Origin: Agelas oroides
Taxonomy: Eukaryota > Porifera > Demospongiae > Agelasida > Agelasidae
Reading direction: 5' to 3'
Assembly: GCA_949130485.1 (NCBI GenBank)
Contig: OX422198.1
Coordinates: 6,979,763 to 7,043,762, forward strand
DNA length: 64,000 nt
Part shown: piece after piece, positions 21,601 through 42,600 of the stretch
Numbering within the stretch: position 1 is the stretch's first letter
Layout: every line of letters begins with the position of its first letter
Translations under genes and position numbers: made by a program
Notes under the pieces: model-generated
What the model was told of the DNA's origin: nothing
The model's input: only the letters and a program-made list of their open reading frames with translations
Databases searched by the model: none

Positions 21601-24600
21601 TGTCTCTGTCTACCAGACTTCACACTGCAATGGAAGAAGCATAAGCTAACAAACTCGTTCAGTCATGCCAACAGATCCCGGCTGGACTCACCAGCTATGT
21701 AGCCTGGTCCCTAGGCTGTTCCCACCTCTAGTTTTTAATCACTTACAGCATGCAAAAAGGTTTGCATGTTGTACCTATCCAGATATTCTCTCTCAACGTA
21801 GCCATGAAGGCCAAATCTCTTACTGTTCTGGTAGTGGTGACGCTTTCGGTCTACGGAAGGGAGACAGCTCGGATATTTCTGGGAGATCAGAAAGCCTGTG
21901 GAGTAAAGGGAAGCTTTAAGCATGCAACAGCTGCAATTCTCTCTCCACGGTAAACCAATGATGTCACACTCTGACATCATCATGCATGTAATAATTGTAT
22001 AGTGGCCAACATACTGCATCCACGGTGGAATATACTTTCTGAGCATGTCAAAATAACTCTGATGTTCTTTCTTCCTCGACTTCACCTGAAAAAATCGATA
22101 GTTGTGCAAAACTTTTAGCTGAAATGTACCCAACTGCACCTGGGTATAAGGCTAAATGTCAACTTACCCTGGTGGAGCGTCTCTTGGGAGCAAAGGGCTC
22201 CGCAGCCTCCAGTAGTTTTCGCTTTGACTCTCTTTTTCCTCCCCCTCCTCCCCCTCCTCCAGTTCCTTCATCTCCACTACTCTGGGGACCACTATCTGAG
22301 AGCGTCTCTAAAACTGACAAATCAGAAGGGGAGGAAGGACAAGTGTGAGACATTGCATGAAGTATGTGAACTGTCCAGCCTGAGGGATTGAGCCTAGAAA
22401 ACTGTGTGTGTACATGTATGTACTAAGAGAGCAGAAATTTAAGGTTGAATTTGATTGCATGGTTTTTGTAAAATTAACCACTCTTGAATGGTTAGGTACA
22501 TTTCCACATATTAGTCTCCCCTCTCACATCAGATTCTCCGTAATATTATAACTTGGATTTGGTTACTGCTACTTTTGCATATATGTTTACCTGTAAATTA
22601 AAGCACAGTTTGTAGTTATTTCTACCTACTTCTGAGGTGTTTTGGACTTCCCCCAGTTCCTCCACTGCACCAAGGGAACGGTTTCTTGGTGGGAGAGGGA
22701 GAGATTAGAAGTGTGCCTGCATGTGTGTGGAGGTGCATGTGTATGTGTGTGTGTGTGTGTGTGTGTGTGTGTGTGTGTGTGTGTGTGTGTGTGTGTGTGT
22801 GCGTGTGTGTGTGTGTGTGTGTGCATGTTTGAGTGTGTATGTGCACATGTGACATGTGCTATGTATACCTTCACGAACTCCCTCCCTGGCTCCCTCTGTC
22901 ACAGTTGAGAGGTCCACTCTCACAACAAAACTCGGCTGCACGGGGTAAGGGAAAACATCAATACCACACCCAGCTACTCGCAGTGCAAACCTAATAAGGC
23001 TGTGAGTGATGCAAGGTTCTATTCCCTCTCTAGACAATGGATGTGGCTTCCTGTTGGTCAAACCAAGAATTCAGAGTGTGCAACTTCCACAGTGAGCTGT
23101 AGCAGACGTTTACTACAGTGTGTCTGTTAAACATATTCACTGTTGACTGCTTGTCATACCTGCCCAGGTGATAGGAACTAGGAAATTACCCACTCTGAAC
23201 TTTCAGCATGGCTTTCCTGAAAAACAGGATGGGACTATTACCCTTGCATGCTTATATATAAGCAAACAAAATTACTGTCAACTAATTCTGTTAATAATGA
23301 TGGCAATTTATGAGTGCGTAGTCATTCTGTTCATGGCTGGTTTGTGTTGGAGTAGGGCATTATATCCAGCGACTGAGGCTACTGAAACCCTAGACAGTCA
23401 GAGAGAGGTATCCAGTGTGGTAGAGAGGCAGCCTTGTCCAACTTGGTACCGGAAGATAAAGCAAAATGGAGTGACCAGGTGTGCGTGTGGTGCGACGTTA
23501 AGAGATACTGTGGTGTGTGATGATGCTGCCCAAGAGACACTGCTCATTGCAGGCCTATGTATGAGTTACGATGACACAATTAATGAAACAGTTGCTGGAA
23601 GATGTCCATTCAACTACCACCGTCCCAATGTTCGATTTTATTACATTGCTGTCCCAAACGATACTTCTGAATTAAACAGCTTCATGTGCAGCGGTTTGAA
23701 TCGAACTGGCTTGTTGTGTAGCCAGTGTCAGCAAGGGTTGGGACCTGCTGTTCTCTCCTACAGAAGGCAGTGTGTAAAATGTCTTGATAAACGATATGGT
23801 TGGCTGGTGTACATTACAGCTACCTTGTTTCCCACAACTGTTTTATGCTTCTTGGTAATGATCTTCCAGTTTCATGTAACCTCTGCTGAAATGAATTGCT
23901 TTGTGTTTCTCTGTCAGTTCATGACATGTACAAACACACTCTCGAACCCGTATGTGTATGTTCAACCTGACAAAGATTTAACAGCCATGCAATTTTTTGG
24001 ATTAGCTGTAACATCTTTCTATGGGATCTGGAATTTAGACTTCTTTCGATACTTCATCCCTTCATTTTGTATCAGCAGTGACATGACTACACTTCACACA
24101 CTAGCACTCGAGTATGTCGTTGCCATTTACCCACTTGTGTTGATAGTGGTGATTTATTTTTGTATTGAGATGTATGACAGAGGAGTTAGGGTGGTGGTTT
24201 GTGTGTGGAGGCCATTCCACGTGTGTTTTGATTGTTTTGGAAGGAGGTGGAATCCCAAGGGTTCTGTGATCAATACTTTTGCTGCCTTCCTGCTGCTGTC
24301 ATACTCAAAGCTGCTGGCAGTATCCTACAGTTTACTGGATGCTGATTACCTATTCAATAACAGAGGTGAAAGAGTTGGTCCAGTTGTACTCTACTATGAT
24401 GCTTCAATTGAGTATTTCAGCAGAGAACACCTTCCATTTGCTCTGCTTGCGATATGTGTCCTGCTGGTGTTTGTTCTTTTCCCACTGTTACTTCTCCTCC
24501 TGTACCCCATGAGATCATTTCAGAGATGTCTTGGCTACTGTACTAGAATAAGATGGCAATTTCTGCACACATTTGCTGATGCCTTCCAGGGATGTTACAA

Positions 24601-39600: not shown

Positions 39601-42600
39601 GTTGCTGGAAGTTGCCCCTTCAACTACCACCGTCCCAATGTTCGACTGTACTACATCTCTGTCCCAAACGACACTTTTGAATTAAACAGCTTCATGTGCA
39701 GTGGTTTGAATCAAACTGGCCTGTTGTGCAGCCAGTGTCAGCAAGGGTTGGGGCCTGCTGTTCTCTCATACAGAAGGCAGTGTGTAAAATGTCTTGATAA
39801 ACGATATGGTTGGCTGTTGTACATCACAGCTACTTTGGCTCCCACAACCATTTTGTGCTTCTTGGTAATGATTTTCCAGTTTCATGTAACCTCTGCTGAA
39901 ATGAATTATTTTGTTTTTTTCTGTCAGTTTATAACATATGCAAACACACTCACAAACTACTCATATGTGTATGTTCAACCTGCCACAGATTTAACAGCAA
40001 TTCAATTTCTTGGATTAGCTGTAGCAACTTTTTATGGGATCTGGAATTTAGACTTCTTTCGATACTTCATTCCTCCATTTTGTATCAGCAGTGACATGAC
40101 TACACTTCACACATTAGCACTGGAGTATGTTGTTGCCATTTACCCACTTATGTTGATAGTGGTGATTTATCTTTGTATTGAGATGTATGACAGAGGAGTT
40201 AGAGTGGTGGTTTGTGTGTGGAGGCCATTCCGCATGTGTTTTACTCGTTTCAGAAGGAAGTGGAATCCCAAGGGTTCTGTGATCAATACTTTTGCTGCCT
40301 TCCTGCTGCTGTCATACTCAAAGCTGCTGGCAGTATCCTACAGTCTACTGGATGCCAACTACCTATACAACAACAGAGGTGAAAGAGTTGGTCCAGTTGT
40401 ACTCTACTATGATGCTTCAATCGAGTATTTCAGCAGAGAACATCTTCCATTTGCTCTGCTTGCAATAAGTGTCCTGTTGATGTTTGTTGTTTTCCCGCTG
40501 TTAGTGCTCCTCCTGTACCCCATGAGATCGTTCCAGATATGTCTTGGCTACTGTACTAGAATAAGGTGGCAATTTTTGCACACATTTGCTGATGCCTTCC
40601 AGGGATGTTACAAAAATGGCAGTCGGAACTGTCGCTACTTTGCCGGACTCTACTTATTTTTTCGAATAGTGTCGTTGTTAGCATTCATTCTTCCCACTGC
40701 TTTCATGTGGACAATAGTTATACCAATTCCTGTTGTTGTATCGCTACTGTTTGCTCACTTTCGTCCTTACAAGAATGACTATTTTAACATTATTGACAGT
40801 TTAGGTTTTGCTGTAGTGGCTTTATCAACCTTCCTGATAATGTATGCAATACACACAGTATATTCCTATTCAGCTACTGTATCTGGTATTGTCGTATCCA
40901 TTCTTGTATTTTATATCATTTGTCTTGTACAAAATTTTCGCTCGAGTGGCACTATTTCGCTCTTGTTGCAGAAAGATTGGAGAAAAGTTCCAAGCAAGAA
41001 GTGACAACATTGATGAAGATCTTCCAGACAGGATTGTGAATCCTGACATGTACCAACCACTTCTTCCAGCAACAAGTGGTGGAGAGGAGAACTCTCAAAG
41101 TGACTGCGGACCACAGGCTAGTGTAAATAGCCTGGTGGCCTATGGTTCAATGTAGAGCAACACAAATACACTATTTTAACAACCACCTTTCAACTTTATG
41201 TGTTGTATTCAAATTTGACTTTTGTGATCTGATAGGAACATCCAGAATTATACTTATTGGCCATATTTTGTAAACTCACCCAAAACACTATTATAATCAA
41301 ACTGAGTCATTTTATGCGTGTTATGTTAATCGAACCATGTGTAACAACTTCCCCCATTGATGTACGCTGAAAGTAAAATACTCATGCTGCTACAGAAACA
41401 GAAATGCTTATATATTTTTACATTAACAAAGAGTTGATAAGAGTGTGTAAGTGTGTAATTCCCATATGGTTCATACTGCCATCATTTAGGCTGTATATGA
41501 CTGTGTATAGGCAGTCAGCAGTAAATATGATATAAACAGCTTATGTAAATAATGGTTTTGTGACGTTTGTGTTTAACTATCTGTTGAACACATTCTCTGC
41601 TGATTGCCTAGATCACAGCAATAAACCACATGGGAGTTTTAGTTTTGGGCCAACCTTTCTTTTGGACAGCTCCTTGCAGTGCTGGTACAGTGACAGTAGA
41701 CACTCACCCAGAGAATAGATACTGGCAACAAAGGTATTACATCATCATGTAATGTATGACCAATCAAAATCAGGTTGCTAAGCAACAGACCTGATGAACC
41801 CCAGTTTCTTTGGTGGGATAATGGGCTCATCCACAGGTATCACTTGGCACAGTTGCTCTCTTCTCTCACTCATTTCAGCTGCCTCTTTCAGATACTATAG
41901 CAATGTGTACAGTGAAACCTCTCATAAGAACTAAGCTTGCTAATCAGGACACAAGAAAAAATAGTTTCAACTTCCCCAAAACAAGAGTCCATAAGAGAAA
42001 AGGGAGGGGGGTAGTCTCTACCCTGACCACCCTCCAAAGAGGAAAGGGAGAATTGGTGGTGATTGGCTGTTTTGGGGAGTTTCAGCAGCATGATCTGGTT
42101 GGCTGTTTTGGGAAATTTCAGCAGCATGATCTGATTGGCTGTTTTGGGGAATTTCAGCAGCATGATCTGGTTGGCTGTTTTGGGAAATTTCAGCAGCATG
42201 ATCTGATTGGCTGTTTTGGGGAATTTCTTCAGCAGCATGATCTGGTTGGCTGTTTTGGGAAATTTCAGCAGCATGATCTGATTGGCTGTTTTTGGTAATT
42301 ACCTCACTAGTACTAGGCTTCCTCATCACAAACCACATAACTTCACACCTTTACATAGCCACTTAGCACATTTCCAATTTACTGAAGCCCAGCAAGCAAT
42401 TTTTAGTAGAATCCATAGCATGCAATAGCTAGCCCAACTGTGTGAGGTTGTACTATATCCACCAGACCCTCCTTTCCTTTTCGGAGGGGGATCTGGGACC
42501 AAGATTAGAAGGGGGAAGGAGATTATCCCACTTGCACTAAAAATAAAATGTTGGTAGTCTTTCAAAGTATGCTTTGCACATGCATTCAGCCACTGTGCTA

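Follow-up and report, generated by a model that had tools for sequence, protein, structure and literature searches.

The window analysed here is a 64,000-nucleotide stretch of the genome of the sponge Agelas oroides (GenBank assembly GCA_949130485.1, contig OX422198.1, positions 6,979,763 to 7,043,762 of the forward strand), and coordinates refer to this window throughout. It carries a family of intronless plus-strand genes, predicted to encode a membrane protein, within a single intron of a minus-strand gene that we identify as CABIN1. A BLAST search of the window with one copy of the family (copy A) as query placed it at eight sites, comprising four near-full-length copies (A–D) and four fragments (E–H), all of which fall between 22936 and 41654. 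Repeated open frames across 23.3–41.2 kb, together with the BLAST matches, agree with the first-pass annotation of this DNA in that such copies fill the intron. Its count of five or six copies was broadly right about the family, although the actual tally is four near-full-length copies, two of them intact, and four fragments.

Copy A (23297–25153) and copy C (36410–38284) have undisturbed reading frames of 618 and 624 residues, and every net insertion or deletion between them is a multiple of three. Copy B (29778–31658) is full length and carries a stop at codon 51; copy D (39307–41155) is near-full-length, with a frameshift near 40850. Copies B, C and D share 87–90% DNA identity with copy A. 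Fragment G (25874–25936, plus strand) is a piece of the N-terminal coding region, and fragment H (27020–27082, plus strand) consists of codons 1–21 and adjoins fragment E (27075–27549), which is inverted onto the minus strand and corresponds to residues 292–450 of copy A. Fragment F (38513–39028, plus strand) is an internally deleted copy in which the 5′ flank runs directly into codons of the last 42 and the 3′ flank: 38513–38668 resembles 36161–36318, 38668–38796 resembles codons 577–618 of copy A, and 38668–39028 resembles 38156–38525. The stop in B, the frameshift in D, the deletion in F and the inversion of E bear out the earlier description of a family that expands, dies and inverts, and make the array a clear example of gene-family birth and death within an intron, with copies at several stages of decay.

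The exons that flank the array on both sides, on the minus strand, are assigned to CABIN1 by homology. The reference was a reconstructed rather than database-derived human CABIN1 sequence, on which the name of the host rests. In a tblastn search of the window it yielded 15 high-scoring segment pairs, nine of them with E < 1e-3 (linked pairs share one E-value). All nine are colinear on the minus strand, running from 44090 to 6087, with four in 44090–43333 and five in 12147–6087. One shuffled version of the sequence yielded three pairs, the best with an E-value of 2.3. The peptide of the N-terminal exons matched one Pfam TPR model above the cut-off (TPR_14). With colinear CABIN1 matches on either side, the nesting of an opposite-strand family in one CABIN1 intron, as first proposed, stands. 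An open frame at 6322–9627 (minus strand) contains part of the C-terminal CABIN1 region, together with many short repeats, rich in Pro, Thr, Ser and His, in one long run.

The limits of the host intron had to be re-drawn. The first-pass annotation had joined exon 9, in its own numbering, directly to an exon starting at 23029. Exon 9 (41791–41894, minus strand) ends in phase 2 and aligns with the reconstructed human sequence from residue 239 or so onwards, its 5′ boundary being uncertain; 36-bp repeats at 42045–42302 lie immediately upstream of it. A 67-bp exon missed earlier (41655–41721, minus strand) continues exon 9 in frame, ends in phase 0 and is bounded by a putative acceptor and donor (splice scores 5.5 and 4.2), with homology to human residues 265–290. 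The next exon (22869–22935, minus strand) opens at a phase-0 acceptor that has a pyrimidine-rich tract and scores 6.4, against a 95th percentile of 6.2 among all AG sites. Its phase-1 end fits the acceptor at 22313 of a further exon (22168–22313, minus strand), which was placed by ungapped scanning and splice scoring and joins on to 22085.

In the ungapped six-frame scan, residues 181–494 of the reconstructed human sequence were placed in the window as 25 overlapping pieces. Three (265–290, 373–398 and 397–422) ranked first at the expected colinear place, with slim margins for two of them (40 versus 38 for residues 265–290 at 41655–41721, and 38 versus 37), and the piece 193–218 ranked second. 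For the other 21, nothing at the colinear place was among the three best matches listed, which suggests that much of residues 181–494 is poorly conserved. We then scored the first 120 residues of each exon model against residues 237–330 of the reconstructed human sequence. The corrected model reached 71, a score attained in none of 1000 shuffles, and its match runs without a gap across the junction; the model joining 41791 to 23029 reached 37, attained in 13 of 1000. The earlier junction is thus probably wrong, skipping the conserved 67-bp exon and starting the next one 94 bp early. Three further acceptors were scored and set aside: a junction from 41791 to 23050 also gave 37, and the phase-compatible acceptors at 23046 and 23025 had splice scores of −3.6 and 0.8 and protein scores of 50 and 48. 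Acceptors at 23050 and 23029 do not suit the phase in which the 67-bp exon ends. Reading frame, splice signals and homology together place the host intron most likely at 41654–22936 (18,719 bp), with position 23029 intronic. The correction carries a lesson for annotation, in that nested arrays can conceal a small host exon and displace a called boundary.

In its hydropathy profile, the array protein begins with a hydrophobic N-terminus, stays free of hydrophobic stretches for about 150 residues, then passes through a succession of them and ends in a charged tail. On this profile the product would carry a signal peptide, an outer domain of some 150 residues that contains cysteines, and about 8–10 membrane spans as counted by eye; it is probably a receptor-like or transport-like surface protein. 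The three copies run against Pfam (A, C and D) gave no match above the cut-off; sub-threshold matches were to PIRC1_2 and DUF6254 for copy C and to DUF7630 for copy D. A sequence search of the PDB with copy A returned no chain at E-values up to 1. A distant relative lies elsewhere in the window, where a minus-strand open frame of 1391 codons (58537–62712) shares 21% identity over 570 positions with the array proteins in its C-terminal part (E = 8e-10); it has a long extra N-terminal region and a sub-threshold DUF7630 match at a cysteine motif. No relatives were found in viral contigs, searched with the array alignment and with this neighbouring gene, or in genome contigs, searched with an alignment of both.

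The homology between copies extends beyond the coding region, and by block length the sister pairs are A/D (23090–25171 with 39099–41173) and B/C (29437–31856 with 36073–38444). Outside the coding region, A and D are alike over about 200 bp upstream and just 18 bp downstream, and B and C over more on either side. The long aligned blocks are 84–90% identical, and the identity of the 5′ flanks is 98.9% for B/C (175 aligned columns) and 80.3% for A/D (183). In all four near-full-length copies, TATATAT begins 43–47 bp before the ATG, extended as TATATATAAG in A and D and as TATATATGAG in B and C; because the copies share descent, this TATA-like box counts as one observation rather than four. The TATA boxes of the first-pass annotation are confirmed for these four copies, and the 5′ fragment H has no such box at the aligned position. 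The box in four of four copies is no more than suggestive of transcription independent of the host. Retroposition was considered and set aside: the longest run of A within 400 bp downstream of the copies is 4–6, with no poly-A tract, and the upstream flanks are common to the copies. Since the 5′ flanks and the TATA-like box are shared and poly-A tails are absent, DNA-level duplication that included the promoter region appears the likelier origin.

Nonsynonymous (dN) and synonymous (dS) divergence was computed for the six pairs of copies, with the stop in copy B masked and copy D taken only up to its frameshift. dS ranged from 0.113 to 0.269, dN from 0.031 to 0.082 and dN/dS from 0.27 to 0.41. 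For the two open copies, A and C, dN/dS is 0.33 at a dS of 0.23, and the differences number 62, 44 and 83 at codon positions 1, 2 and 3, third positions having most.

Taken together, these observations make it highly probable that the locus is a nested cluster of opposite-strand paralogues within a CABIN1 intron, generated by DNA duplication, partly decayed and partly kept under purifying selection. On this reading, one CABIN1 intron would have come to house an intronless multi-pass membrane-protein gene, which then multiplied within it through duplication at the DNA level, every duplicate bringing its own short promoter region. Copies would since have been lost through a stop, a frameshift, a deletion inside a copy and an inversion, with at least two kept open by purifying selection. 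CABIN1 would be transcribed across the array from the opposite strand and the array removed with the 18.7-kb intron; frame, splice signals and homology support such a host transcript spliced across the cluster. Copies A and C may be expressed from their own TATA-like promoters, presumably with little effect on CABIN1.

Some observations on the array, and others on the host gene that we turn to below, count against this reading. The 3′ flanks fail to align for A/D (4 columns) and for A/C (7 columns). Neither AATAAA nor ATTAAA occurs within 600 bp past the stops of copies A, B and C; copy D has a canonical poly-A signal at +465 after its stop. Across the intron, AATAAA falls below its expectation from a Markov simulation on both strands (plus, 2 versus 5.9; minus, 7 versus 9.4), numbers too small to use. 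The broken copy B compared with C still gives a dN/dS of 0.28, so the ratio cannot tell which copies are alive today. The array might be mostly a decaying relic that makes no working protein, the open frames of A and C having been left by chance. The two broken copies out of four, the four further pieces that are fragments and the missing poly-A signals after A, B and C would fit such a relic. It is nevertheless unlikely, given that A and C hold 618 and 624 open codons separated only by in-frame net indels, at the dN/dS and dS given above.

On the host side, a PDB search with the N-terminal CABIN1 exons returned TPR proteins, none of the 37 being named CABIN1 or Hir3. The donor at 41655, with a score of 4.2, falls short of 4.7, the 90th percentile for GT sites overall. 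A stronger AG than that at 22935 lies nearby (first exon base 23216, score 10.9), which is barred in this frame by a stop immediately above 23070. Both acceptors considered for exon 9 are weak (scores 1.2 and −3.1), and because the phase-2 end of the preceding exon fits neither of them, there seems to be at least one further CABIN1 exon between 43042 and 41894. The junctions from 41791 to 23029 and to 23050 are also open frames and could be alternative splices. A weak donor is what might be expected if CABIN1 were here split into two genes, an N-terminal TPR part and a C-terminal part, with the array between them. The two sides, however, join in phase and without a gap relative to the reconstructed human CABIN1, and reading on past the donor at 41655 meets a stop after 13 codons; we regard a split as very unlikely.

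The arrangement also raises the question of regulation, as the first-pass annotation had read convergent transcription through CABIN1 and possible antisense interference from it. Convergent transcription follows from the geometry only if host and array are expressed together. In that case, plus-strand transcription could collide with the CABIN1 pre-mRNA or make RNA antisense to it, and the array would regulate its host. The geometry would allow for this: the ATG of the first copy lies some 360 bp away from the 22935 acceptor, and 500 bp separate the end of the last copy from the donor at 41655. In the literature, nested genes are argued to be able to cause interference, some correlating negatively with their host (PMC3192792), and inverse regulation is thought likely for opposite-strand pairs (PMC4394429). 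The copies are intronic, however, so their transcripts would reach CABIN1 exons only by read-through. Antisense interference is possible from the geometry, and regulation of CABIN1 by the array is highly improbable as the explanation of the locus.

That the copies were piled up or misjoined in assembly, long tandem copies being a classic source of error, is extremely unlikely, as they differ by 1–29% per 120-column stretch and have distinct lesions and spacers, the window contains no N, and CABIN1 is in order on either side.

The amino-acid differences between A and C are not evenly spread, clustering at alignment columns 202–245 and 438–477 (19 and 17 of 40), and three of 2000 shuffles reached the second-best of these windows. 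C/D shows the first of these hotspots too, its best window (201–244) holding 20 differences, over the 99.9% level of 18, and the second-best (43–83) was matched in 26 of 2000. Clustering was not significant for A/D or B/C, the second-best window being matched in 169 and 1870 of 2000 shuffles, respectively. In the 40-codon A/C windows that start at columns 201 and 441, dN is 0.28 and 0.30 and dS is 0.56 and 0.39. Given the raised dS, conversion from a diverged relative explains these hotspots equally well; we treat them as a lead only and do not claim positive selection. A far bolder picture, to which we assign only the slimmest chance, would make the CABIN1 intron a nursery in which a family of surface receptors diversifies. 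The hotspots would then be ligand-contacting parts, kept diverse either by selection or through conversion with unlinked relatives, with purifying selection acting on the remainder of the protein, and expression of the receptor and of CABIN1, an H3.3-chaperone gene, would be mutually exclusive through convergent transcription.

Among known nested genes, those of the insect TipE/Teh family encode membrane proteins, and the human KRTAP10/12 cluster is nested in the host gene TSPEAR. Of all genes, about 10% are nested in Drosophila and 1% in humans, two-thirds of the human ones lying on the opposite strand (PMC4394429). With clusters of paralogues inside host genes already published as well, the earlier description of the arrangement as unusual was overstated. 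In the glass sponge A. vastus, 12.4% of genes are nested (PMC10282587), and a review considers gains of nested genes likely neutral (PMC3488318). Closest in kind are the insect TipE/Teh genes for channel subunits, which form a likewise small paralogue family in one intron, the last, of the conserved single-copy gene CG18675, whose span is about 20 kb in the fly (PMC3240667). Teh2 and Teh3 are opposite in strand to TipE, whereas the near-full-length copies here share one orientation, and that cluster is old and stable across insects, whereas two of the four near-full-length copies here are broken (PMC3240667). Most insect GMC oxidoreductases similarly lie in one large intron of the unrelated, conserved host Flo-2, but these are enzymes and the cluster is conserved across insects (PMC3240667). 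The human KRTAP5 paralogues in MOB2 (PMC4394429) and the KRTAP10/12 cluster resemble the array as intronless families in tandem, pseudogenes included, within a host gene, although their products are small structural hair proteins. OMG, EVI2A and EVI2B in NF1 intron 30 are likewise opposite-strand genes, three in one intron (PMC4394429), but not a tandem array of near-identical paralogues. Glassin of Aphrocallistes and Oopsacas is also a single-exon nested gene, but a single copy (PMC10282587).

CABIN1 does not occur in six listed of 224 literature matches. The type of arrangement is already known from insects and mammals, and what is new is CABIN1 as the host, together with a membrane-protein family that lacks a Pfam match above the cut-off in the three of four copies run. 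The finding alone leaves knowledge of nested genes unchanged, while the protein family of the array merits a structure.

Several other elements occur in the window. Within the CABIN1 intron, a 565-bp element at 35473–36037 has 67-bp inverted ends (97%) and the same nine bases, GTAAACACT, on both outer sides; it looks like a small non-autonomous DNA transposon, and no second copy is present in the window. Between copies B and C, a plus-strand open frame at 32504–32941 has a weak THAP-domain match below the cut-off and is perhaps a transposase remnant. Two blocks (27926–28140 and 29344–29555) of a repeat with a roughly 54-bp unit, showing up to 97% similarity, lie in the spacer that separates fragment E from copy B. 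Beyond the array, the minus strand at 49857–49928 gives an Rfam tRNA match of 35.5 bits, not called by ARAGORN (bacterial settings), and is perhaps a tRNA-derived element. Also on the minus strand, at 421–2286, lies an open frame of 621 codons with immunoglobulin I-set domains (Pfam E = 2e-29).

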